This document shows positions 322 through 47,806 of a DNA stretch of 64,000 nt, piece by piece. The notes beneath the pieces are model-generated. The model was not told where the DNA came from, ran no database searches, and was given only the letters and a program-made list of their open reading frames with translations. Each line of letters starts with the position of its first letter. The first letter of the stretch is position 1. Both the position numbers and the translations under genes were made by a program. Source of the DNA: Salvelinus alpinus (taxonomy: Eukaryota > Chordata > Actinopteri > Salmoniformes > Salmonidae); the NCBI RefSeq assembly GCF_045679555.1, contig NC_092091.1:11557918-11621917 (forward strand), in the 5' to 3' direction.

Positions 322-3300
322 ATGGAAGAAAAGCAGTATACGTCACTGACGGTTCCTACGGATTATCTCCAACAGTGGTGAGTTGTCCTCCGAACGCGTT
401 GGTGTTGGGAGGTTTTGCATAAAATACAATTGTTGTGGAGTGTCAGTGTGGAGGTCTCCATCAACATGTATTAAATAAAGCTCATTTTGCAATAACTGTC
501 AAAACAGTTCCTATCGCCATGGCCTACAGCAGGCTATGTATTATTGTCATCATTAGACAAAGCATGCTTTTCTCCCCCCCACAACACTGTACTTTTTAAA
601 ATTAAGAAACAATTATGATCCTGTGAAGACAGACCGACAGGAAGGCAGACATTTTTACATGGTACAATGTACATGATTAAATAATGATTTGCAAAGAAAA
701 AACTGATTGGAAGTTTATATGCAAAGTTACTCTATGGATGCAGAGTGAGGTAACATGTCATTGATAGGCCATTTACATTTAAGTAAAGTAATCCTAGACG
801 TTAAAACACATGCATCCTTACAACATGATCATTAATAGCACACACACCCATGTCAAACCCAAAAGTTGGGCCATGAATGTTTTCTGACCAGGAAACATGA
901 GACGTCAAACCAATGTGTGTGTGAAATGTATTCTAGGAAGGTTGCTGTCATATTTGTTGATGTAAACTCACATATATACTGGGTTCCTAGGAGCATGAAC
1001 CGTTTCTCTATGGACCCTCAGTCATTTCTTTGTCTTCCGGTTTGTCACCTCTCTGGACAAACCCCATTTGAAAACAAAAGAAGATGGTGTCACCCCAGTC
1101 GGTTTCTTTTGTCTTCTGGACCTGTAGGTACCAGTCCACCCAGCAGCACCCCCAAGCTCAACATGTGATGCAGTACCATAACACGGGTCATATGGGTCAT
1201 TACATGGAGGGATCCAGAGAGGACCGGGTCATGACGGAGCTGTCTGTCCACCAGGACCTCCCTGTCCACCAAGAGCTGGACTTCCTTCACGACTTCCATC
1301 AAGAGCCAATCGTCCAACACGATCAGCCTGTGGATACATCACAAGGTATGTGATGACCGCCCCCACCCCCTTACTTAGCCAGGCCGTCTGCCATGTTTGT
1401 GTGGTCAATATTTGTACAGCTTTATTTGTTGTGCGCTCTCTCCTCTGCGTACACACATTTCCCCAGTCCCCACCACCCTGGTGTTAACATGAACTGATCT
1501 ATCCTCACGCGGTGCTGTTCCAGTAATCAATCCGATTATATTTGTCCAGCACCTTCCACAGAATCATTGGGCGTGTCTGAGATTGACTACATTGCAGTCG
1601 GACTGCACAGGATCACTGATTTTTATAAATCCCCATTTTGCTTCCCGGAGAACCACTCATTATGTGATCAAGATTTGCGATTCTGCACCTCGCCTCAAAT
1701 GGATTCCCCCGCAAACCTGTTCATTTTCTGTCTTTTAGCTCCGACGCCAGGGAAGAGAAAGAGAGGTCGGCCTCCCAAACAGAAGCCGGGGGAGGGCCAA
1801 CCGCAGGAGGACTACGATCAGGCAGAGGCCCTGAAGAAAGCCAAAAGGACCCTTAACCGTTTCAATGGCATGTCAGTGGACGAGGTTATGGCCAAAACCC
1901 TGCCAGACATTATTGACCATAACCTGGACATTTTGATAGTGAGTTTTAACATTTAATTTGTGACATTTTCAGACTGGTGATGTTGAGTAGGGCTGTTTAT
2001 GTAAAGTTTGGCCCAATTATATATATTTTTATCTGTACCATTATTAATGATAGGCCATTCTACCCTGATGATGGCCCATGGAATACACCATTCTACCCTA
2101 ATGATAGCACATGGAATACACCATTCTACCCTGATGATGGCCCCTGGAATACACACACCATTATACCCTGATGATAGCCCCTGGAATACACACACCATTA
2201 TACCCTGATGATAGCCCCTGGAATACACACACCATTATACCCTGATGATAGCCCCTGGAATACACACACCATTATACCCTGATGATAGCCCCTGGAATAC
2301 ACACACCATTATACCCTGATGATAGCCCCTGGAATACACACACCATTATACCCTGATGATAGCCCCTGGAATACACACACCATTATACCCTGATGATAGC
2401 CCATTGGATCAAACACAACTTTTCATTAGATTAAACCCATGTACTACGTGCGTTGTGAATTTGAATCAAATCAAAAATGACTCTTCAGTCTCTAGCATTT
2501 TGCAATAATAAGAATTTATGATCCCTTTCTCAGATTGGTATCAATCCAGGACTGTTGTCAGCCTACAAGGGACGACATTACCCAAACCCAGGAAACCATT
2601 TCTGTACGTAGCACTCACTTCTATTTCCATACATACATACAGAGTACTGTAATACCACATACTGACTGCCTGATTAGGGTCATGTTCATTAGGGCACAAC
2701 GAAGCAAAACATTGTGCAGCGGAAAAAAAGAAAAAACAAGCCAGTCTTGTTGGACGAGTTCAAACGGTACCTCTCTCTTTGACTCGTTTTAGAACGCTTT
2801 CTTCCGTTTTGTGCCTAGTGAACACAACCCACGTTATTAGTAACATTATGAGGAAAGTGATTGAGCTTGTTTTTGTTTTGGACCTTAGGGAAATGCCTGT
2901 TCCTCTCTGGTCTTACTGATGAGCAGCTCAACCACATGCACGATCTGAGCCTGCCGGAGAAGTATGGCATTGGCTTTACCAACATGGTGGAGAGGACAAC
3001 GCCAGGAAGCAAAGACCTCTCAAGGTGTCAAACCTATAGTAATAAACCTATAGTAATAAAAAAAGCACAGATGTCATGAAACATCCATTTTGCATTTTCT
3101 TTCTAGTTACAGTTGTCGTCATGGTTATTGGTTCATTGTCGTCATGGTTATTGGGTCATTGTCTAGGCTAACTTTGTTACTATTTCTACAGCAAAGAGTT
3201 TCGTGAAGGAGGCCGGCAATTGGTGGAGAAGCTGAAGAAATACAAGCCACTAATCGCAGCTTTCAACGGAAAATGTGAGCACATTTTTATAGAGCATATC

Positions 3301-5967
3301 AGTAATTACAATTATAGTTTGTTTTGTCTTTTACAGATAAAAACAGAAATACTTGTCATTTCGACAAAGTTTGACCTACATCATTTCATGATGATATTCA
3401 TTGCATTACGGTCTGGTTCGATTCCAGGCTTTATCACAGCGGTCTAAGGCACTGCATCTCAGTGCTAGAGGCGTCACTACAGACACCCTGGTTCAGGGCC
3501 GTGATTGGGAGTCCCATAGGGCCGGCGCACAATTGGCCCAGCGTCGTCCGGGTTTGGCCGGTGTAGGTCGTCATTGTAAATAAGAATTTGTTCTGAACTG
3601 ACTTGCCTAGTTAAATAAAGGTTAAATTACTCTTCTTCGGCAGGTATTTACGAAATTTTCAGCAAAGAGATCTTTGGAGTGAAGGCAAAGAAACTCGAGT
3701 TTGGCTTACAGCCGTACAAAATCCCAGAAACCGAAACAGTAAGTAGTTTTACCAAAATACACTGAACCAAAATATAAACACAACATGTAAAGAAAGTGTT
3801 AATCCCGTGTTTCATGAGCTGAAATAAAAGATCCCAGAAATGTTCCATACACACATGCTTATTTCGTGGTGTGCACGAATTTGTTTCCATCCCTGTTAGT
3901 GAGCATTTCTCCTTTGCCAAGATAATCCATCCACCTGACAGGTGGGCGAGCAGTTTGCCGATGTCAACATTGTGAATAGAGTGCCCCATGGTGAGGTTAT
4001 GGTACGGGCAGGCATAAGCTACTGACAACGAACACAACTCGATTTTATCGATGGCAATTTGAACGCACAGAGATTGTCGTGCCATTCATCCACTGCCATC
4101 ACCTCATGTTTCAGCATGATAATGCACGGCCCCATGTCGTAAGGATCTGTACACAATTCTTAGAAGCTGAAAATGTCCCAGTTCTTCCATGGCCTGCATA
4201 CTCACCAGACATGTCACCCATTGAGCATTGCTCTGGATCAACGTGTATGACAGCGTGTTCCAGTTCCTGCTAATATCCAGCAACTTCGCACAGCCAATTG
4301 AAGAGGAGTGGGAAAACACAACGCACAATCAACAGCCTGATTAACTCTATTTTGAAGGAGATGTCACGCTGCATGAGGCAAATGGTGGTCACACCAGATA
4401 CTGACTGGTTTTCTGATCCACGCCCCCCCCCCCCCCCCTTATTTCCAAAGTATCTGAAATCCATAGATTAGGGCCTAATGAATTTATTTCAATTGAAGGA
4501 TTTCCTTAAAATCTTTGAAATTGTTGAATGTTGCGTTTTTATATTTTTGTTCAGGATAGTAACTAGTCGCACATGTTTGTATCCATTCTCTCATTGTCTG
4601 TTCCTACTGTTGTTTTGGGGTCTGTTCAACAGGGTACAACGTTATAGATTCCGATAGAAATGTATTCTAGATCAAGTTTAGCGTAATGTCACGTAGAGCT
4701 GTGAGCCGTGTCGGCTCCACACATTTCTACCTGCAACGTTGCGAATGTCTTCACTCATTGCATACATCCCAGGTGTGCTACTTGATGCCTTCGTCAAGCC
4801 CCCGCTGTGCCCAGTTCCCCCGCGCTCAGGACAAGGTTCACTTCTACATCAAGCTGAAGGAGATACGGGACAAGATCAAAGGTGTGGTCTCAGTGGCCCG
4901 CGAGGTGCAAGAGACTGAGTACCACTTCGACTTGGGACTTGCCAAAGGTAAAATAATGGTCACGACGGAGTTAAGTTAAGCGTTGCCACACTTCAAAGTC
5001 TCGTTCACGCTGCTATTTCAGAACGAACATGAGAAAGCCGTTAACTGAATCTCTGATATATACTGAATATATTGCCATTGATAAGGATGCCATCGTGCGC
5101 TTCATGTTACACCAATTATATTCAGTCATGTGGTGTACATTCAAAGGATAAATGAGGGTATGCTCTCTAGATTGGCAATCGTATTGAAGAGCAGTGTTGT
5201 TGATCAGTAATGTTGTATTTCCTGTATCACTGCTACAGAGGATGCTAAGAGGATGGCCATCAAGGAGGAGCAGGTGGATCCTGAGTACGAGACCTGCGAC
5301 GGGGAGCGCGAGGAGGCAAGGCAAAGCACAAGCTACTGCAACATTTCCTCCACCAAAGAGACCGGTGAGAGCAAGTTTCTGAAGAGTGTTTTTTTTGTCT
5401 TTCGTTAGTGCTTCTCGGCTGATAGGAAAATAGACCCGAAAGATGAACGACTTGTCATCACTATTCATACAGCTGTTGGTTTGTTAAAGGGTTACTTCAG
5501 GATTTAGGCAATGAAGCCCTTTATCTACTGACCCAGAGTCAGATGAAGCCCCTTATCTACTGACCCAGAGTCAGATGAAGCCCTTTATCTACTGACCCAG
5601 AGTCAGATGAAGCCCCTTATCTACTGACCCAGAGTCAGATGAGGCCCTTTATCTACTGACCCAGAGTCAGATGAAGCCCCTTATCTACTGACCCAGAGTC
5701 AGATGAGGCCCTTTATCTACTGACCCAGAGTCAGATGAAGCCCTTTATCTAGATGAACTCGTGGATACCATTTTTACATCTGAATAATTGTTTTTAATTT
5801 TTATACTCCTTTCAGCAATGCCCAGTAAGGACCAAGCCCAAGCTACACCATTGAACCACATGCCATACGACCAGTGGATGACACAGTCGTTTGCGGACCA
5901 GATACCGGACATTAGCTGTAACAGTAGCAATGTAGCTCAACCTCAGTTGGGAGCAGAAACCTTTTGA
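322..5967 (+). CDS. tdg: Thymine-DNA glycosylase, tandem copy 1 (10 coding exons, 436 aa)
   Basis: TDG is a nuclear base-excision enzyme that removes T or U from G mispairs and, in vertebrates, 5-formyl- and 5-carboxylcytosine in active DNA demethylation. Exons read from GT-AG sites and homology: 322-377, 1128-1345, 1739-1938, 2534-2603, 2889-3024, 3192-3274, 3644-3738, 4773-4947, 5239-5364, 5816-5967; together they form one open frame. Residues 1-90 are Gln/His-rich. A basic [11 protein letters not shown] stretch (97-107) has an AT-hook-like GRP core. The UDG-fold domain starts near 125, with catalytic Asn162 in GINPG (160-164) and the insertion loop MPSSSPRC at 291-298. A sumoylation-type IKEE lies at 352-355, and the C-terminus keeps [11 protein letters not shown]. 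Relative to human TDG, Ala145 is Ser, Gly154 is Asn and Ala274 is Pro. Length is near the human 410. The start is the first ATG of an exon that copy 2 matches exactly in length. Intron 7 holds a Tc1-derived element, intron 6 a SINE, and introns 3 and 9 minisatellites. Confidence 0.95.
2054..2402. repeat. 37-bp minisatellite, intron 3 of TDG copy 1
   Basis: About nine to ten tandem units of 36-37 bp built on CCTGATGATAGCCCCTGGAA. The first three units differ slightly; the later ones are nearly identical. The array is entirely intronic, starting about 115 bases after the donor of exon 3. Confidence 0.9.
2676..2832. mobile_element. MITE-like palindromic element with ATTAGGGC/GCCTAGTG ends, intron 4 of TDG copy 1
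   Basis: The element begins GGGTCATGTTCATTAGGGCA and ends TGCCTAGTGAACACAACCCA, roughly inverted termini around a TTGTTGGACGAGTTCAAACG-type core. Related copies are at 6411-6614, near 27640-27775 and 37448-37565, and a fifth is split at 21095-21385. Family name unknown to me; it is non-coding. Confidence 0.6.
3408..3632 (+). mobile_element. SmaI-type SINE, intron 6 of TDG copy 1
   Basis: A tRNA-derived head (GTGGTCTAAGGC-like GCGGTCTAAGGCACTGCATC) is followed by GCGCACAATTGGCCCAGCGT and the LINE-like tail GACTTGCCTAGTTAAATAAA. It sits just upstream of the acceptor of exon 7 (3644), so its tail forms part of the polypyrimidine-side intron. Confidence 0.85.
3760..4556. mobile_element. Non-autonomous Tc1-like element, intron 7 of TDG copy 1
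   Basis: Inverted ends CACTGAACCAAAATATAAAC and the mirrored ...TATATTTTTGTTCAGG-like right end are flanked by TA. Inside, 4090-4230 (+) reads [12 protein letters not shown] and [14 protein letters not shown], a Tc1 transposase catalytic-domain piece, but the frame is short and broken. About 0.8 kb, so internally deleted relative to a 1.2-1.6 kb element. A C-run lies at 4423-4438. Confidence 0.8.
5511..5752. repeat. 32-bp minisatellite, intron 9 of TDG copy 1
   Basis: Seven and a half tandem 32-bp units of the type ATGAAGCCCTTTATCTACTG plus ACCCAGAGTCAG, with T/C and A/G variants alternating between units. It ends about 64 bases before the acceptor of the last exon. Confidence 0.9.
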
Positions 5968-11982: not shown

Positions 11983-13588
<1,606 letters not shown>

Positions 13589-14973
13589 TACCTGTCCTCA
13601 ATCTGGGTTGACATACCTGTCCTCAATCTGTGTTGACATACCTGTCCTCAATCTGGGTTGACATACCTGTTCTCAATCTGTGTTGACATACCTGTCCTCA
13701 ATCTGGGTTGACATACCTGTCCTCAATCTGTGTTTATATACCTGTCCTCAATCTGGGTTGATTTACCTGTCCTCAATCTGGGTTGATTTACCTGTCCTCA
13801 ATCTGGGTTGACATACCTGTCCTCAATCTGGGTTGACATACCTGTCCTCAATCTGGGTTGATTTACCTGTCCTCAATCTAGGTTGACATACCTGTCCTCA
13901 ATCTGTGTTGACATACCTGTCCTCAATCTAGGTTGACATACCTGTCCTCAATCTGTGTTGACATACCTGTCCTCAATCTGGGTTGATTTACCTGTCCTCA
14001 ATCTGGGTTGATTTACCTGGCCAATATAGAATGTCTTTTGCTCTTTCTTTGCACTTGCCTATTCTCAGGTGTGATTCGGGAACTCTATTCAGCATTTTCT
14101 TGTTTCAGTTGATTTGGTACAATGAGTTTTGCGGCTTTGAACAGCAGTCCTGATGTATAGCTGATTTCCTCCTTGAAAATGTCCAGCATGGATGGATTTC
14201 TTTGGGAACCACACTCTTTTCACTGGGCCATCCACTCATCGTTGTTACTCTCAACAGTTGCATTGTGGGATCTTCTACTGTTGCTTTCCTGAACGCTTGT
14301 AGCTTCTCCTCTGAGATTGGCAGCGGAGGCGTTATCCAGTTTACCTCCAACTCCTCTCCCAGCAGATCTTCGTGTTCGTTGAAGTAGGCTCTACTCAAAG
14401 CATCTGCTATGTGCATTTCTTTGCCTGGCTTGTAGGTGACAGTGAGACTGTATCTTTGAAGTCGGAGCAACATCCTCTGCAGCCTTGAAGGAGTGTGATG
14501 CAGCGGCTTCTTGAATATGCTCTTGAGAGGCTAGTGATCACTTTCAACTTGTACCTCTCTGCCATACACGTACTGATGGACATCTCCTCACATCCGTAGA
14601 CTATGGAAAGTAGTTCCTTCTGGATCTGTGCATATCAACATTGACAGTCTGAGTGATCGAGAGCCATATACAACAGCTCTACCCTCTTGGAGTATAACTG
14701 CTCCCATACCTCCTGAACTGGCATCTAGTGACAGTAATAGGGGTTTATTCATGTCATAGAACTTCAGTGTTGGCGCGTTTGTTGCCAATCTTTTGATAAA
14801 AAAAACAAAAACAACAGTTCTTATGTTTTTGTTCCCAATGCCATTCAGTGTCACTCTCAAGTAGCTTTCTGAGCAGAGCGTTCACCTCAGATAGGTTGGG
14901 AATGAATTTGCCACGATTAGTGTAGAATGCACATGAATCTCTGCAGTGTTTGTTTGTCTTCGGCTAGAGGAAT

Positions 14974-15429
14974 CTGCACCACTGCCCTCACCTTCTCATC
15001 ATCTGGTTTCAGACCACTGGCCATTAGCATCTGCACCACCGCCCTCACCTTCTCATCATCTGGTTTCAGACCACTGGCCATTAGCATCTGCACCACGGCC
15101 CTCACCTTCTCATCATCTGGTTTCAGACCACTGGCCATTAGCATCTGCACCACGGCCCTCACCTTCTCATCATCTGGTTTCAGACCACTGGCCATTAGCA
15201 TCTGCACCACGGCCCTCACCTTCTCATCATCTGGTTTCAGACCACTGGCCATTAGCATCTGCACCACGGCCCTCACCTTCTCATCATCTGGTTTCAGACC
15301 ACTGGCCATTAGCATCTGCACCACGGCCCTCACCTTCTCATCATCTGGTTTCAGACCACTGGCCATTAGCATCTGCACCACCGCCCTCACCTTCTCATCA
15401 TCTGGTTTCAGACCACTGGCCATTAGCAT
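14974..15429 (-). repeat. 57-bp in-frame tandem repeat inside Gypsy pol, eight units
   Basis: Eight copies of a 19-residue unit (MLMASGLKPDDEKVRAVVQ) follow the reverse transcriptase. In Gypsy pol this segment normally occurs once, just after the RT domain. Units are nearly identical at DNA level (C/G variants), so the expansion is recent relative to the decay of the element. Confidence 0.95.
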
Positions 15430-15659
15430 GTGACCAATGTACTTTACCTGTCGTTACCATTTTACATTTCTTCCTGTTTAGTTTTAGATTGTACCTGCTC
15501 GCTCTCTGTAGCAGCTTGACCAGTCTGCGGTCATGTTCATCCTTAGTTTCACCCCAGACCAACAAATCATCGATGACGTCGACTACTCCATCCAGGGCCT
15601 TCAATTATCTGTGCCACGGATCTCTGAACACCTCAGACGCAGATGAGACACCAAAGGGT

Positions 15660-19369: not shown

Positions 19370-19749
19370 ATGGAAGAAAAGCTGTATGGATCAGTGCCTG
19401 TCCCCTCGGAATATCTTCAACAGTGGTGAGTTCTTACCCCGTCAAAAAAAGAAGCCCAGGACATTTTGAACGAACACCCTCCCCCTGAATGGCAAATTGT
19501 TATGAATCTGAAATAACAGCATGTTTTTGTTTTGTTTGCATCTGATGGATTGTGCTATCTGAATCACCTAAATGCTTTGAATTGAGTTTACCACAGAACG
19601 ACCTGTCTTTACTTGTAAGCCTAGATAATTGTGAGAATGAATTATGAGAACGAATTGTGCAATTGATACTATCAAGACAGTTATGATAAAAGTGTGTGTG
19701 TGTGTGTGTGTGTGTACACACCAGACGATGCTGGGCCAATTTTGCGCCA

Positions 19750-19799
<50 letters not shown>

Positions 19800-22700
19800 C
19801 ACACACACCACATCACATATAGACTGACTTTCCAGTCCAGTTCAGCCTCATCTAGGAAACTTTCAACATGCAGGTGGTATAGGCAATAACAGGTTGCTTC
19901 TATGCTGTAGAAGCTGTGTCTAATGTAAGCTACCTCGTGAATATGGTGGAGGTAGGCCTACCTTTTACCTTGTCTGGACCTTCTGGTACTTTTGAGGAGT
20001 CTGGGATTCTGAATGTCCTCGAGGGCATGGTGTATTTGTTTTACAGGACTCACAAATATATTTACAATATTAATACTGGGGCTCTCACTGCAATATATTT
20101 TGCCTGTAGAATTAATACTGGGGGTCCTTTTCTTTTGTCTTCCTTGTACAGGATTCAGTCAGCTCAACAGCTTCAGGCTCTGCAGGGCCAGTATCCGGGC
20201 ATCAACCATCACCACAGTCCTCACCCTCACTACACAGAGGAACCAAGAGAGGAGAGAGTCATGGCACATGCACATATGGCTGTCAATGATGAGCTCATGG
20301 CTCAGCAAGAACCTGCCAACTTAGCGAAAGGTACCCTGCTTCTTCATTCCCACAGAGCTGTATTCAATAACAATAAGGACATGATCCTCAATGTATTGCT
20401 GGCCCAATGGATTTGAAGTTGATTAATTTGTGGGAGAAGTGTTCTTTTTGATGCATTTCCCCACAGATTAAAAACAAATGTAAAACAAGTGTAACTCTGT
20501 TGTTGTTTGTGTGGAACTGCTGTATGTTTGTTTGTGTAACTCTGTGTTGTTTTTTTGTCGCACTGCTTTGCTTTATCTTGGCCAGGTCGCAGTTGTAAAT
20601 GAGAACTTGTTCTCAACTGGCCTACCAGGTTAAATAAAGGTGAAGGGGAAAAAAAATGCCTCATCAACAAATTGTTGGGAAGGTTAACAGCAAGGTGATT
20701 GGGAGTTCTCTCTACCTCTTGCAGCTCCAGCGAAAAAGCGAGGGAGAACGGCACAACCAAAGGAACCCAATCCACCCAAAATGCCCAAGCCACCCAAGGA
20801 GCCCAAGGCCAAACCGGGCCCCAAGCCACCCAAGGAGCCCAAGGCCAAACCGGGCCCCAAGCCCAAGAAAGGCAAGGAGGGTCAAGAGGCTGACGGCACG
20901 CAGGAGAAGATGGACGAGACCGTCCAGAAGGTCAGGAAGAAACGAGACCGATTCAAGGGCATGACGGAGGATGAGGTCATGAGCAGAACTCTGACTGACA
21001 TCCTTGACTACAACTTGGACTATGTCATTGTGAGTTCTACCTTTTTGTCACTTTATGCCAGACATTATTATTAATGATATGAGACTGAAAATTGAGCTAC
21101 CTTGATTTGTCCAATAAGAAATACTAATTTGTTTCCAGCTGCAAAAGGTTTTCTGTTGCGAGCCCTAACGCAGTGTTTCCCAAGACTGGTCCTCCAGTAC
21201 CCCCAACAGTACACAGTTTTATTGTAACCCTGGACAAGCACACCTGATTCAACTTGTCAACTAATCATCAAGCCCTCAACGAGTTGAATGAGGTGTGTTT
21301 GTCAAGGGCTACAATTAAACTGTGCACTGTTGTGGGTACTGTAGAACCAGTGTTGGGAAACACTGCCCTAATGAACACAACCCAGTAGCATGATGTGAAT
21401 CTCTCTCTCTGTTCTAGATTGGAATCAACCCAGGTCTGGTGGCAGCCTATGTTGGACGATGGTTCCCTGGCCCTGGAAACCATTTCTGTAAGTTGCTTTA
21501 GTAGATATTTAGTCTTGATTTGGTGTGAACAGCTGTCAGGAACTCTTATTTTGAAAATATCTTCCTTCTATTTTTAGTCTGCGCTTTCATTACCTCGACA
21601 CCGTTTATGAATCAACCGAAATTGCAAAACTTTAAATTCAAGGCATCTTAACTGCACTGTTTTCCTATGCTTAGGGAGCAGAGCATTACACAGTTGACCT
21701 CAATTTCAGAATAATAATGGTACGACAAATTTAATGAAAACTTGTCCTCATCAGGGAAGTGCCTGTTCTTGTCTGGATTCACTGATGAGCAGCTCAACCA
21801 CATGAGCGACACCAGCCTGCCAGCGAAATATAAGATCGGTTTCACCAACATGGTGGCAAGGACAACGCCCGGAAGCAAAGACCTTTCAACGTAAGCTTAG
21901 GAAGAAAATAATCAAATACCTAAAGTCAGTCAGCAATGTGCTGAGAAATGACGAGTGAGACAATACAGAGTAAATGTCAACCAGTGGCCACACAGCAAAC
22001 TGTATTCACATATAGATGGAATACAATGTTTGACTCGCATCTTATGTTAATTCACAGTAAAGAGCTACGTGAGGGTGCCTTAATTCTTGTCGAAAAGCTG
22101 AAGAAGTTCAAGCCTCTCATTGCTGTTTTCAATGGAAAATGTAAGTAGCCACAAAAACCCTGCTAGAGAGGAGAAAATGTCAGTTGCAAGACCTTTCCAT
22201 TGAAATTCCATATTAAGCGTTGAAATTGTTTATTTTCAGGTATCTATGAAATGTTCTGCAGAGAGATGTTTGGAAAAAAGCCCAAGAAACTTGACTTTGG
22301 TCTGCAGCCACACAAGATACCTGACTGTGAAGTGGTAAGGGCTCTACTTCCTGGTAGTCTGATGTGGTAAGGGCTCTACTTCCTGGTAGTCTGATGTGGT
22401 AAGGGCTCTGCTTCCTGGTAGTCTGATGTGGTGCTCGGTTACCAGGTAGTCTGATGTGGTGCTCTGTTACCTGGTAGTCTGATGTATAAGACTTCCTGTT
22501 CGTGGTTTATTGGGGGTGTGGCGTTCAGTTATTTTTGGCCACCCATCCCATGAAAGTGAATGTCATTCCAGTGCACTGCTTGCTTTGAATTCTATATGAT
22601 GGTGCATGTTTAGGTTAAAACACTGACAAGTAGAGAGTAATATCTTAATTTTTCTTTGGCGCAATCTGATTGGGTGGGCCTGACTCCCCAGTGGGTTGGC

Positions 22701-25700
22701 CCAGGCTTGTGCGGGTGATTATTAACCTCCAAGAGTTGATTGACGCACCGGTGCGTCATAGTAACATAAAACAATGGCCATCTAAATCAGTTAGTTTAAG
22801 GTAGAAATCTATTATTTGGATGCGTCTCAATCCACCACATCCGCCGATGTGGAACTTCTGCATCCGCGGTAAAAGGTGGCAGAGCTAGAGTGGTGTTTGT
22901 CAGACCATGAGACGTCCCGAAAATCACTTCTCACCAAAACGTATGTAGCATATTACTACCACTGTGTGTCAGGGGACTAGTCTGAAGTCGGTACAGTCGA
23001 TGTGCCAACTTTTTATTTGTAGCGTCCAAACCATTTGGGTTACTAATGTGACCCCACTGTGGAAAGGGGAGATTCTCACGAACACGTTGGTGTTCTCCGT
23101 TTTGCTCTATGACCCCCACAAGTGTCACGGGACTCGTCTGAAGGTAACCTGGTACCAGTTTTTTTATTTTTTTATTTTAAAAGAATGGAAGTATCAATCA
23201 AATCAATTACATTTATTTATAAAGCCCTTTTTACACCAGCAGATGTCAGTGCTTATAAAGAAACCCAGCCTAAAACCCCAAACAGCAAGCAATGCCGATG
23301 TAGAAGCACGGTGGCTAGGAAAAACTCCCTAGAAAGGCAGGAACCTAGGAAGAAACCTAGAGAGGAACCGGGCTCTGAGGGGTGGCCAGTCCTCTTCTGG
23401 CTGTACCGGGTGGAGATTGAAGGTACCCAAAAAAAAGGGGTTAAATATGTTTAACAACAAAAATATTTCCTGAGCTTATATCTCTTAGATATAGGACAAA
23501 CACTTCAAAACCTTATTCCTTATGATACATTTTTTGACTGTCTTTTTTTGCCGCTTTATGAATGTTATTCAATTAGTTTCTCTGGCATATAGTAGTTCAA
23601 GCCAAAATCTATAATTTATCATTTATTTTTTTAAACTAAAGTGGTCCTAAAATGTAAAATCAAATTGCTAAATGATCCATATTCCACATGTCGGCCTAGA
23701 CTTTTTAAAGAATGAGCTATGATCATTGGGCATACAGAGGAAGTACAGTACCATTCCCCTTTTTGAAATGACACCGTATAACCCTGCCCTCTCCCCTACA
23801 GGCGTTGTATCTGATGCCGTCGTCCAGTGCCCGCTGTGCCCAGTTCCCCCGTGCCCAGGACAAAGTACACTTCTACATCAAGCTGAGGGAATTAAGGGAC
23901 CAGCTCAAGGGCGTGGCCAGAACAGACGACATTCAGGAGTTGGAGTACACCTTTGACCTGGGATTGGCCAAGGGTAAGAGAACGTACTGCAGAGTGCTCC
24001 GAGTATTCAATTACATGAAAGTACATAGTTAACATCAAATGTAAATTATTATTAAAAAGGTACAATTTTGAAATGAAAAGCCATCACAGTTCTGCCCAGT
24101 CTTATGCCCTTGTTGTTCATCTGAATGAGCTGTATGAGAACAGTCTTGTTCACCAGATGCATGGTAACAGTTTGTTTGTTCCATAGAAATATCTTAAATT
24201 TAATTCTGTGTTTTCTACAGAGGACGCCAAGAGGATGGCGATTAAAGAGGAGGCGTACGACCCGGGCTACGAGGCGGCCTTCGGCGGCGCATATGGCGAG
24301 GGCGGGCCTGGGCCTGAGGAGGGCCAGAGCAACGGCAACGGTCACTGTAACTTCTCGTCGGCGGAAAACACAGGTCAGCACAGAGATGCCTGGATGGACC
24401 ATAGACTTAGGATTAGCAGTAACTAGTTCTATGGTATAGGCTCCCCACAGCAGGGTTCTCCCCAGGATTCTTGATACACCCCACTGCTGAGTACGGCGCC
24501 CCTCTTAACTCAATATCTTTTCATTTTTTAACACCTGTAACTGTCATTATCTGCAATCCTAGAGCAACAACAACAAAATGGCCTGAGATGATAACATAAA
24601 GTAATGATTCTGTTCCATTCTTTGGGGAGAACCCTGCCACAGGACACTCGTCTTTTAAAAATGGCAGTTAACACAAATTACAAAAGTATTTAAGCAACCT
24701 CACCTTGAAATGAGTAGATTCCAGGAGGTATTGTGATCCACACACTGGATGTGTATGTACCCTGAATTCCTCCTCCCTGGACACTGTTACCTGTCTGTGT
24801 TGGAGAGCTGTAAGTAAGATGGCTGATATTCTAGCCAGCCCTTCAGAAGGCAACGGTGAAGTGCCATATTGTGCATTCCTGTCCAAGCTGTTCAGATGTT
24901 TAGGAGTGTCTAGGGGTTGATGTGGAATGCAGGGATAGTATACTATACAACACAGTCACATTGCTGTTGGCCACAGTAAACAAGACTGAATGATGTTTCG
25001 AATCCAACTAGCCAGCCTATAGAATATTTTGAATCTCACTATGTCGAGCTAACTAACTGGGACATAACCTGATATTAATGAGTCATTCATATTAAAGACT
25101 AGGGTTTTTCCTACCATTATACACTTTCTGTACCATACCGGGATATACGGTATTATTTTAAGGGACACTATTTGTGATGATTTTTTGTTTTATTTTACGC
25201 ACAAAACAATTTAAGCATCATGGATCTTGATCCAGGAAGGGGTTGAATATCTCTGCTGTAACCAAGAAGCTTGATCTTACCAACTAGCCACTTAGCTAGC
25301 AAGTTAGCAAAACCAAATGCATAGCTGGAGCCCTGAGATGGAAATAATTAGTTTGACACATCTTAGATAGTTAACTTGTAGTTGCAAGCAGTGGCGTAGC
25401 ACGGGGGGGGGGGGTGAAAATCATACCTTCAGTAATACCTTGGTATACTGTATATCGTCCAAGTCTATTAAAGAGTACGAGGACTGCTGTGGTTTGTAAT
25501 GTACCTAGGAGACACATGCCAGAGACTACAGATGAAAAATGAGCTATCCAGCTAAATCTGGTGCAATGACATGTTGTACATGGTCCATGACAAATAAACA
25601 ATAAACACCAGGGTCCAGGGACAACCGTAGTCAGCCAGCCCAATAAACACTAGGGTCCAGGGACAACCGTAGTCAGCCAGGCCAATAAACACTAGGGTCC

Positions 25701-26370
25701 AGGGACAACCGTAGTCAGCCAGCCCAATAAACACTAGGGTCCAGGGACAACCGTAGTCAGCCAGCCCAATAAACACTAGGGTCCAGGGACAACCGTAGTC
25801 AGCCAGCCCAATAAACACTAGAGTCCAGGGACAACCGTAGTCAGCCAGGCCAATAAACACTAGGGTCCAGGGACAACCGTAGTCAGCCAGGCCAATAAAC
25901 ACTAGGGTCCAGGGACAACCGTAGTCAGCCAGGCCAAGCAGGGCATAGATGCTCAATTGTGACAACAAATGATGTATACAAAACAAGTAGAAGGCCAAAA
26001 TGAAAGATTCAAACAAAGTCCTCCTCTCACTCTGCAATCACCTGCTAATCACCTGCACCTGTGAACAATCACTAACTTATGTTGCTGTCACTTGCAGCAC
26101 CTAGTCCGGATGCTGCTGCCCCCTATGTGTGATTTGTAGTGGACGGGTTTATCTATGGCCTAGGTAACATGGTCCAGTCACCTCAGAGGTTATTTCATTC
26201 TAGTTTCAGACGCTGTCGAGAAGGCAGACACTTCCCAACTTCCTGCCGCCGCCGCCGCTGCCACAGAGGGACAACTCCCAGACGGACAGTGGATGATGCA
26301 GTCTTTTGCTGATCAGATTCCAGACATTGGTGGCTCTAAAGAGCCCCAGGCATGGGCGGGCAATGTATAA
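19370..26370 (+). CDS. tdg: Thymine-DNA glycosylase, tandem copy 2 (10 coding exons, 471 aa)
   Basis: This is the second TDG paralog in the same orientation. Exons: 19370-19425, 20152-20330, 20725-21029, 21418-21487, 21755-21890, 22058-22140, 22240-22334, 23802-23973, 24221-24373, 26204-26370; all join in frame and phases match copy 1. The N-terminal region is longer, with a Lys/Pro-rich segment in which a 12-residue unit (100-111) is repeated exactly (112-123). The AT-hook-like core of copy 1 reads GRT here. Catalytic Asn184 sits in GINPG (182-186), but the next pocket segment reads [10 protein letters not shown], so human Lys148, His151 and Tyr152 are Val, Trp and Phe. The insertion loop MPSSSARC (313-320) is canonical. 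The SUMO motif IKEE (373-376) is followed by a tail close to human ([15 protein letters not shown]). Residues near 430 form an Ala-rich run. Start: the ATG matches copy 1. Intron 3 has a hAT-type MITE, intron 7 begins with a minisatellite that copies the splice donor, and intron 9 has a 42-bp minisatellite. Confidence 0.95.
19692..19806. repeat. TG, CA and TA microsatellites, intron 1 of TDG copy 2
   Basis: A (GT)n tract at 19692-19714 and a (CA)n(TA)n(CA)n tract at 19751-19808 lie within the first intron. Confidence 0.9.
20500..20645 (+). mobile_element. RSg-type LINE 3' tail, intron 2 of TDG copy 2
   Basis: TTGTCGCACTGCTTTGCTTT, GAGAACTTGTTCTCAACTGG and the end GGTTAAATAAAGGTGAA are the terminal part of the LINE seen in fuller form at 28330-29292. 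It ends about 80 bases before exon 3. Confidence 0.75.
21171..21365. mobile_element. hAT-type MITE, intron 3 of TDG copy 2
   Basis: The 195-bp element begins CAGTGTTTCCCAAGACTGG and ends CAGTGTTGGGAAACACTG, is palindromic overall, and has 8-bp flanks CCCTAACG and CCCTAATG, a target duplication with one mismatch as expected for hAT. The flanking bases belong to an older ATTAGGGC-type element (about 21095-21385). Confidence 0.8.
22335..22486. repeat. 32-bp minisatellite overlapping the exon 7 splice donor, TDG copy 2
   Basis: The intron starts GTAAGGGCTCTACTTCCTGG; the GTG|GTAAGG donor context recurs at 22367 and 22399, exactly 32 and 64 bases downstream. Two more degenerate units (CGGTTACCAGG, TGTTACCTGG) follow. 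Confidence 0.9.
23195..23435 (+). mobile_element. Dispersed repeat (AAACCCAGCCTAAAACC family), intron 7 of TDG copy 2
   Basis: It shares AAGCACGGTGGCTAGGAAAA and CTCCCTAGAAAGGC with the longer copies at 33525-34278 (+) and 58300-58850 (-). Non-coding. The class is unknown to me. Confidence 0.7.
24431..25590. other. Intron 9 of TDG copy 2, first part
   Basis: No feature beyond a G-run at 25401-25412. This intron reaches about 1.8 kb, larger than intron 9 of copy 1 (about 450 bases). Confidence 0.4.
25600..25936. repeat. 42-bp minisatellite, intron 9 of TDG copy 2
   Basis: Eight 42-bp units containing AATAAACACTAGGGTCCAGG and ACAACCGTAGTCAGCCAG, with CC/GG variation at the unit end and one T to A-type variant (TAGAGTCC). 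Long frames crossing it on the - strand are repeat artefacts. Confidence 0.9.
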
Positions 26371-45004: not shown

Positions 45005-46690
45005 TCACTCCACGACATACTGCCATGGGACTTCACCTGCTGGCGATGAGAAGTAGGTGGTCAGCTTCTCCCTCACCTGGAGTGCCTGTCTGGGGGCGTT
45101 GGCACCTGCCCTGGTGACATCAGGTAGGTGACCATTTGGCGTACCCATCTCCATCCGGAGCGGCTCCTGGAATGACCTCCGCGGGTAGTTATAGAGAACA
45201 CATGTGGCTTTCACGCAGGCATCGACATTTGAGGGGCTGAGACCAAGCACTCTCCAATACATTCTCCACCGGGCTGCCAGAATCCCAAAGGTGCATTCAA
45301 CAACTGACCTTGCCCTGGACAATCGTTTGATAAAGATCCTTACAGGCTTTGGCAATGGCAGCTGGCATCCAGCGTAGGGCCTCACGAGGTTGGGTCTTAA
45401 AGGGAAGGCCTCGTCGCCGACGAAGATGTGGGGAACAGGTCCCAGGTCTTCAGCTCCAGGGAGTGATGCAGGTGGTGGAATCTCCAGGGTGCCATCCTGA
45501 AGTGCCTGGCCGAAGGCAGAGTCCCGGAGGGTCCTGCCATCACTTCCCTTGCCGTAAGCACCAACAACACGGAAACAGTAGATGGCATCTACTACAGCCA
45601 AGAGTATAACTGAATATGTACCCTTGTAGTTGTAGAATTGCGAACCTGAGCACGGTGGAGCCTGGATTACTACATGTTTCCCGCCAATGGAGCCAAGACA
45701 GTTGGGGAAATTCCACCTCTCCAGGAACTCGGCAGCGATGGCCCTCCAGTCTTCCTCCTTGGGGATAGGCATGTATTCACCAACCAGACAGTCCCAAATG
45801 GCTTGTGCCACAGAGAGGACAATGCCTGCCACCGTGGACTGTCCAACTCGGAAGCTGAATCCAATGGTCCTGTAGGATTCCCCTGTCGCCAAGAATCTAA
45901 AATATAATTCAAAATAATTATCAATATTGTGTGTAAATTGAATTCCACCCACATATTATATCTACTCATATATCTACCTCATTACAGTATATTATGCTCT
46001 ACTAATTATATTGTAATACTCATCAACCATCATTAACAATGCCTTGAAACACTACAATTCAGTCTATGACTATATCAATAAACTAGCCCAGGCCAACTCT
46101 ACTCTTAGAAAAAATGGTACTATCTACTTAAAAGGGTTCTCCAGCTGTCCCCATAGGAGATCCCTTTTTGGTTCCAGGTAGTACCCCTTTTGGTTCCATG
46201 TAGAACCTTATTGGGTTCCATGTATAACATTTTCCCCAAAGGGTTATACCTGGAACCAAAAATGGTTATCCTATGGAGAAAGCAGAAGGACACTTTTTCT
46301 CTAAGAGTATGTGAGTCCAATAAGAATGTAATGAATGACTAACTGTGTTGAACAACAATGGGTCCTGGAGAAGACTAGCCTACCTTCATCAGGGCAGAAG
46401 GCACCTCAACTTTATTTTCATTTGGTAACATTGCATAATTAAAAAAGGATTATAAACCAATTTTGGGAAAAGTTATAGTCCTAATAAACATTCTGTAAAA
46501 GTACATCTGATATCAAATAGGGACTATTAACTAGAGAGCCCTTTAGCTAGCTAGGTTGCACATAAAAATAATGTATCAATCGATGATGGTATCAAAGGCT
46601 TTAAAAATGTACTAGAATGTAGCTTACCGGAGACAAATCGCCAGGCGTTCAACTGGGCTGATGAACTCCCGGTAGTTGGTATCCATCTGG
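45005..46690 (-). pseudogene. HARBI1-like DDE transposase (PIF/Harbinger), broken
   Basis: Exon 2 is 45896-45005 (297 codons open) and exon 1 survives only as 46628 to about 46687, ending at a GTAAGC donor whose phase joins AICLR to FLATGESYRT. The protein has the family landmarks FSFRVGQSTVAGIV (helix-turn-helix region), WNFPNCLGSI, NYKGTYSVILLAVVDA, KGSDGRTL, VFVGDEAFPL-like IFVGDEAF, LSRARSVVECTFGIL and RWRMYWR. The usual IDGKH, which supplies the first catalytic Asp, reads IGGKH (codon at 45685-45683), so the DDE triad is damaged. A two-residue gap also appears before GAYGKGSDG. Exon 1 upstream of NYREFISPVERL is replaced by Tc1 sequence. The intron contains a palindromic MITE (46102-46307). 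It lies tail-to-tail with the MADF-BESS gene, the arrangement of a Harbinger element. Host HARBI1 is an alternative but the missing Asp and lost exon argue against it. Confidence 0.8.
46102..46307. mobile_element. Palindromic MITE with CTCTTAGAAAAA ends
   Basis: Ends CTCTTAGAAAAAATGG and TTTTTCTCTAAGAG are inverted and flanked by TA. The interior is a long imperfect palindrome (GGTTCCAGGTAGTACC and GGTTATACCTGGAACC). It sits in the intron of the HARBI1-like gene. Confidence 0.75.
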
Positions 46691-47806
46691 CTGGGCCACT
46701 CAAGGACATTCAGTCTTGTCCTGAAGCCACTCCTGCGTTGTCTTGGCTGTGTGTTTAGGGTCGTTGTCCTGTTGGAAGGTGAACCTTCACCCCAGTCTAA
46801 GTTCCTGAGAACTCTGGAGTAGGTTTTCATCAAGGATCTCTCTGTACTTTGCTCCATTAATCTTTGCCTCGATCCTGACTAGTCTCCCAGTACCTGCCGC
46901 TGAAAAACCGTAGGGATGGTGCCAGGTTTCCTCCAGACGTGACACTTGGCATTCAGGCCAAAGAGTTCAATCTTGGTTTCATCAGACCAGAGAATCTTGT
47001 TTCTGATGGTCTCACAGTCCTTTAGGTGCCATTTGGCAAATTCCAAGTGGGCTGTCATGTGCCTTTTACTGAGGATTTGCTTCCGTTTGGCCACTCTACC
47101 ATAAAGGTCTGATTGGTGAAGTGCTGCAGAGATGGTTGTCCTTCTGGAAGGTTCTCCCATCTCCACAGAGGAACTCTAGAACTCTGTCAGAGTGACCATC
47201 GTGTTCTTGGTCACCTCCCTGACCAAGGCCCTTCTCCCCCGATTGTTCAGTTTTGCCGGGCGGCCAGCTCTAGGAAGAGTCTTGGTGGTTCCAAACTTCT
47301 TCCATTTAAGAATGATGGAGGCCACTGTGTTCTTGGGGACCTTCAATGCTGCATAATTTTTTTGGTACCCTTCCCCAGATCTGTGCCTCGAAACAATCCT
47401 GTCTCGGAGCGCTACAGACAATTGCTTCGACCTCATGGCTTGTTTTTTGCTGTGACATGCACTGTCAACTGTGGGACCTTATATAGACAGGTGTGTGCCC
47501 TTCCAAATCATGTCCAATCAATTGAATTTACCACAGGTGGACTCCAATCAAGTTGTAGAAACATCTCAAGGATGATCAATGGAAACAGGATGCACCCTAG
47601 CTCAATTTCGAGTCTCATAGCAAAGGGTCTGAATACTTATGTAAATAAGTTATTTGTTTAGTTTCTTGAAATTTGCAAACATCTTTAAGAACCTGTTTTC
47701 GCCTTGTCATGTGTGGATTTCTGAGGATCTTTTTTTATTTAATCAATTTTAGAATAAGGCTGTAATTTATATAAATGTGGAAAAAGTCAAGGGGTCTGAA
47801 TACTTT
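46688..47806 (-). mobile_element. Truncated Tc1-like element fused to a HARBI1 exon
   Basis: The transposase N-terminus (47436-47176) starts MRSKQLSVALRDRIVSRHRS; the catalytic part (47166-46879) has [13 protein letters not shown]; homology continues to LEWPSQ and ends abruptly at about 46688 where HARBI1 exon 1 begins. Terminal repeats on the right include two GGTCTGAATACTT direct repeats (47630 and 47793), but the outermost bases are missing and a T-run and LINE follow. Confidence 0.85.

Follow-up and report, generated by a model that had tools for sequence, protein, structure and literature searches.

Two TDG genes and an unusual base pocket

Human TDG carries out mismatch repair and the removal of 5fC and 5caC in one pocket, so the two roles are hard to separate in vivo. 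The window (the whole 64,000-nucleotide stretch of Salvelinus alpinus DNA analyzed here) holds a tandem pair of TDG genes, and an earlier note on it, made from the sequence alone, had read Trp and Phe in the second gene where the pocket residues His151 and Tyr152 are expected. This raises the question of whether the second gene encodes a working glycosylase and, if so, whether its pocket favors other bases than that of its neighbor. The features needed for the argument are the following, where C6 is the sequence that holds the window and C9 a second sequence of the same assembly.

322..5967, forward strand: coding region of copy 1 (tdga), 10 exons, 436 aa, His151 and Tyr152 retained
2534..2603, forward strand: exon 4 of copy 1, counterpart of copy 2 exon 4
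19370..26370, forward strand: coding region of copy 2 (tdgb), 10 exons, 469 aa
19370-19425, 20152-20330, 20725-21029, 21418-21487, 21755-21890, 22058-22140, 22240-22334, 23802-23973, 24221-24373 and 26210-26370, forward strand: the ten exons of copy 2
21418..21487, forward strand: exon 4 of copy 2, 70 nt, with catalytic Asn140 and the pocket loop 145-157 including Trp151 and Phe152
C9:52446500-52452500, reverse strand: TDG match, the C9 ohnolog of copy 2 (L023)

In a gene model built from genomic DNA alone, the copy 2 frame is open from ATG to TAA and all nine introns are of the GT-AG type. Inspection of the sequence showed that positions 21418-21487 are exactly exon 4, with AG upstream and GT downstream; it encodes 23 residues, and its final nucleotide opens the Trp160 codon, which is completed at 21755. 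Exons 4 to 7 have the same lengths in the two copies (70, 136, 83, and 95 nt). The part of the protein encoded from exon 4 to exon 9 scored 37.2 bits against PF03167 for copy 2 (236 aa) and 41.4 bits for copy 1, with a cut-off of 24.3. Copy 2 has the GINPG motif, including the catalytic Asn140, together with Asn157, as is characteristic of the TDG/MUG family (family 2 of the UDG superfamily). Its closest solved relatives over the catalytic domain are human TDG structures (phmmer E of 9.5e-105 to 1wyw_A, over query residues 1-203 of 213), followed by the Mug entries of the PDB (E of 1.1e-15). The full-length proteins of copy 2 (369.1 bits, E of 2.7e-110) and copy 1 (375.6 bits, E of 2.7e-112) both fall below the cut-off of 402.6 for TIGR00584, the mug/TDG subfamily model, so the miss is not special to copy 2; it probably reflects the variable tail included in this 328-position model.

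The pocket loop of copy 2 compared with human TDG and copy 1

Over the aligned core, copy 2 is identical to human TDG (PDB 1wyw, 3ufj, 4fnc, and others) at 135 of 185 residues, with Asn140, Asn157, Asn191, Asn230, Ser271, and Arg275 kept and the tails different, and to copy 1 at 140 of 185. Within the pocket loop, copy 2 differs from the human chain (1wyw_A) by M144V, K148V, H150R, H151W, and Y152F, while Asn140 and Asn157 are retained. H150R is common to copy 1 and hence not special to copy 2; K148V, H151W, and Y152F are found in both copy 2 ohnologs and in neither human TDG nor either copy 1. The His151-Tyr152 pair typical of vertebrate TDG is thus replaced by Trp and Phe in both ohnologs, as the earlier note had read for exon 4 of the window copy, and its observation that Asn157 is kept likewise extends to the C9 gene. 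The codon for residue 151 is CAT in copy 1 and TGG in copy 2, three nucleotides apart, and that for residue 152 is TAC in copy 1 and TTC in copy 2, one nucleotide apart. Copy 1 retains His151-Tyr152 and has S145, N154, and P274 instead; these three residues are present in both copy 1 ohnologs, P274 being a proline that adjoins the Arg275 finger.

Elsewhere the pocket positions that we checked in copy 2 are as in human TDG. Unchanged in both ohnologs are I139, N140, G142, A145, P153, N157, N191, P198-K201, and N230, as well as S271-S273, A274, R275, A277, Q278, and P280. Across residues 137-301 we counted 18 changes specific to copy 2 (present in both ohnologs, absent from human TDG and copy 1) against 9 specific to copy 1. 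The copy 2 changes were not enriched in the loop 145-157 (3 of 18, hypergeometric P of 0.15) or at 12 pocket positions (2 of 18, P of 0.39), so the pocket has not been singled out; the unusual feature is the type of substitution at residue 151. Nor are residues 151 and 152 the sole candidates for a functional effect, since K148V, E194A, and, in the C9 ohnolog, P155H differ as well. The excess of copy 2 changes, spread without significant clustering in the pocket, is what would be expected if W151-F152 were a product of tolerated drift, near-neutral and leaving the substrate profile the same, with both genes kept through different expression. We regard this as a tenable though tentative alternative, and it has to be set against the fact that the codon for residue 151 lies three changes from that of copy 1 and is identical in both ohnologs.

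A study of teleost tdgb describes the functional sites as highly conserved in all TDG proteins that it analyzed (PMC6976628), whereas here both copy 2 ohnologs depart from that pattern at residues 151 and 152. Among the matches listed in our literature search, judged by titles, abstract openings, and selected passages from a library with few subscription papers, none described Trp at position 151.

The altered loop is shared by a second, diverged locus

A PF03167 profile search of the organism's own genome gave no match, single exons probably being too short for the model, and TDG loci were located instead with a protein query. In the 2.37-Gb assembly, TDG exons lie at four places that form two tandem pairs, one on C6 in the window and the other on C9. 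The order on C9 is rps13-like exons (52.311-52.313 Mb), copy 2 (52.449-52.451 Mb), and copy 1 (52.479-52.480 Mb); on C6, rps13-like exons are found ∼1.4 Mb away on copy 2's side, and a third rps13-like set lies on C33, where there was no TDG match. Since the C9 order matches the gene order published for teleosts, rps13-pik3c2a-tdgb-tdga (PMC6976628), copy 2 was taken as tdgb and copy 1 as tdga. On this synteny with rps13, copy 2 corresponds to zebrafish tdg.2 (tdgb), which is the second member of the tandem TDG pair in teleosts. Four genes are described in salmonids, tdgaa, tdgab, tdgba, and tdgbb, arranged as two tandem pairs on two chromosomes (PMC6976628), and from this correspondence and the genome size we infer that C6 and C9 are ohnologous regions.

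Between C6 and C9, copy 2 shows a dS of 0.36, a dN of 0.023, and a dN/dS of 0.065 (185 codons), and copy 1 a dS of 0.17, a dN of 0.020, and a dN/dS of 0.11; between copy 1 and copy 2, dS is 1.1-1.7. A dN/dS of 0.065 indicates purifying selection on the copy 2 core ever since the two loci parted. The C9 codons for residues 150-152 are CGA TGG TTC, identical to those of the window copy, in a loop that also carries P155H. The earlier note had named a sequencing error as one way in which its reading could fail; the same TGG TTC codons at a locus that has diverged to this extent exclude a base-calling error. Together with the complete open reading frame of the window copy, they leave sequencing or assembly error, or a pseudogene, as a far-fetched account. 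Nothing in the window copy speaks for any of these, and only in the C9 ohnolog does the frame end early, beyond the catalytic core: a 2-nt deletion relative to the window leads to a TAA in exon 9, so that the C-terminal tail is lost while the catalytic core is intact. The C9 frame ends after an IKEE stretch, which we take to be a possible SUMO site. Exon 3 also varies between the loci: in the window copy (20725-21029) it encodes a lysine-proline repeat in which a 12-residue unit is present twice, and in the C9 ohnolog the repeat is rearranged and contains additional KAKPGP units.

Recent gene conversion between C6 and C9 is an unlikely source of the common W-F pair, as identity in the introns close to exon 4 is only 74-83% over the aligned positions (175/237, 135/176, and 133/160, leaving out 66, 214, and 7 gap columns, respectively). 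The same codons at a diverged locus, with recent conversion unlikely, indicate that W-F is older than the split of the two loci. The pocket loop change thus preceded the C6/C9 split, presumably that at the salmonid genome duplication, and was kept in both loci. Judged by its sequence, copy 2 is a genuine variant of a known enzyme, and both duplicates have preserved it.

Trp151 is the unusual member of the pair among family relatives

We tallied the pocket positions in prokaryotic relatives and relatives from a viral collection that have Asn140, a set that includes no animal TDG. After removal of 5 repeats there were 231 loci with a match, from which 19 without Asn140 were dropped to give 212. 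Two pattern scans, rich in enterobacteria, supplied 160 of the loci (80 kept of 209 and 80 kept of 87, the latter from the viral collection, in which some contigs may carry DNA of the host). Phylum searches, in which 92/296, 14/249, and 33/249 genomes had a match, gave 71 new loci that were read, these being the only ones cut out.

Position 151 was His in 193 of the 212 loci, Pro in 16, and Asn, Phe, and Tyr in one each; Trp was found in none. At position 152 there were 198 Phe and 14 Tyr, at position 145 there were 173 Ser, 38 Thr, and a single Ala, and Asn157 was present in all 212. Reducing the set to 150 distinct segments (residues 139-180) gave a similar picture, with 134 His, 13 Pro, and one each of Asn, Phe, and Tyr at 151 and with 136 Phe and 14 Tyr at 152. 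The 19 dropped loci had no Trp at 151 either, 4 of them lacking any letter there, and a DNA-pattern scan of viral contigs for coding sequence of GRWFPG..GNHF gave 0 matches. One bacterial relative (L213) has Trp at position 150, adjoining 151 (GWHFARPGN). In the animal proteins compared, the pair is H-Y in human TDG and the two copy 1 ohnologs and W-F in the two copy 2 ohnologs.

With Phe the usual state at 152 in the family and Trp in 0/212 at 151, W151 is the unusual change of the pair; as the family relatives also vary at both positions, we treat copy 2 as a variant of TDG. The lack of Trp among the relatives speaks against tolerated drift at 151, although aromatic residues do occur there, rarely (1 Phe and 1 Tyr), in relatives with Asn140. 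In favor of drift, Mug of E. coli is functional (PMC3488261) with Pro at 151 and Phe at 152. Mug (PDB 1mug) resembles copy 2 in Phe152, the catalytic Asn, Asn157, and the lack of His151 and differs in having Ser145 and Pro151; it is 32% identical to the human core.

Published roles of the altered residues

His151, Asn157, Asn191, Asn230, Ser271, and Ser272 direct their side chains into the cage of human TDG; Tyr152 stacks its ring on the base and contacts O4 of uracil through its main-chain NH, and N4 of 5caC is contacted by the side chain of His151 (PMC3488261), in agreement with the earlier note's placing of residues 151 and 152 at the base pocket. Its claim that changes at 145 and 151 alter activity is also in line with published mutants: A145G and H151A/Q are reported to make human TDG initiate repair at normal A:T sites (PMC5363859, citing Maiti 2012) and A145G to increase base flipping and G-T excision (PMC13022674), and A145S is reported to leave substrate specificity unaffected (PMC3488261). 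We considered S145 of copy 1 as a change complementary to W-F and dropped it because of this neutral outcome in the human enzyme.

His151 has been computed to act as a proton shuttle in thymine release, and calculations for 5fC needed no such shuttle (PMC8510025). That His151 contacts the base and that its mutants alter activity (PMC3488261, PMC5363859) count against a near-neutral replacement. A prediction study lists His151 as one of two catalytic-pocket residues, and its sequence-based model assigns His151 to the total-loss positions, at which a substitution is expected to do damage (PMC10345196). E. coli Mug excises G:U and, much more slowly, G:5caC, with activity on G:T and G:5hmU reported as undetected (PMC3488261).

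Copy 2 as a probable glycosylase with a possibly shifted substrate balance

The most likely outcome, we believe, is that copy 2 (tdgb) is a working monofunctional DNA glycosylase whose substrate balance would be shifted, in an uncertain direction, by the altered and kept pocket loop (probability roughly 0.55). In TDG, Asn140 holds the attacking water and Arg275 occupies the space that the flipped base vacates, and both residues would be expected to do so in copy 2, which is very probably catalytically active. Phe152 should still offer a base-stacking ring and a main-chain NH at O4, so that Y152F is likely to be mild, with stacking and the main-chain contact persisting. With Trp151, the imidazole would be gone that touches N4 of 5caC and, by computation, passes on a proton in thymine release, and a larger, donor-only indole would stand in its place; H151W may thus lose a contact, a restraint, and a possible proton shuttle, and add bulk. 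We would expect copy 2 to retain G:U activity and to act on G:T, 5fC, and 5caC in proportions unlike those of copy 1, a difference in specificity that we think somewhat probable.

As to the direction of the shift, cytosine-type bases would be expected to be excised less well in comparison with U and T, since the N4 amino group of the former loses an acceptor; this follows hydrogen-bond logic only and is a tentative suggestion. It is weakened by Mug, which has no His151 and still removes 5caC, and H151A/Q represent a gain of activity on normal DNA, so that loss of the His need not weaken anything. With Phe152 usual in Mug relatives and 5caC excised by an enzyme with Pro151 and Phe152, the W-F pair by itself lends no support to the earlier note's idea that the paralogs may share out mismatch repair and the removal of 5fC/5caC. 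A division of labor between the copies in vivo seems unlikely.

The large indole could also narrow the pocket or, in line with the total-loss prediction, harm the enzyme. Taken to its end, this leads to a copy 2 with little or no catalytic activity, retained because it binds abasic DNA or serves as a scaffold for co-regulators, and noncatalytic roles of TDG are indeed known in general. We consider such a protein improbable: W151 might block the pocket, but Asn140 and the other checked pocket positions are retained, and the core is constrained to the degree reported above.

Expression bears on the drift alternative. In trout, the tdgb ohnologs are relatively high at the start of ontogenesis, and in late spermatogenesis the tdga ohnologs peak while the tdgb ohnologs are unchanged (PMC6976628). 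This difference would supply another possible reason for keeping both genes, as near-neutral drift in the pocket supposes, but all tdg paralogs rise alike in the ovary at the spawning stage (PMC6976628), so in trout the two genes differ in expression only in part. A 2018 review describes expression data and loss- or gain-of-function data for the zebrafish genes tdg.1 and tdg.2 as unpublished at that time (PMC5869911).

A further-reaching version of the preferred reading, which we think doubtful, is that teleost tdgb is a TDG naturally respecified by the change of His151 to Trp, reported to be expressed early in trout and differing in its preference for G:T, 5fC, and 5caC, with the result that two adjacent genes would partly divide repair from demethylation. 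If true, a natural pair of paralogs with a changed and a standard residue 151 would provide a genetic means to separate both roles in fish, and the fish TDG pair would help to test why His151 is conserved across so many relatives.

Other open frames in the window

The window also contains open frames on the reverse strand outside the TDG genes. Those at 12346-13268 and 46879-47478 resemble Tc1/mariner-type transposases by eye, and that at 45005-45955 (316 residues) resembles a Harbinger-type nuclease by eye. At 14917-15453, beside retroelement-like frames, a reverse-strand open frame contains eight copies of the 19-residue unit MLMASGLKPDDEKVRAVVQ.
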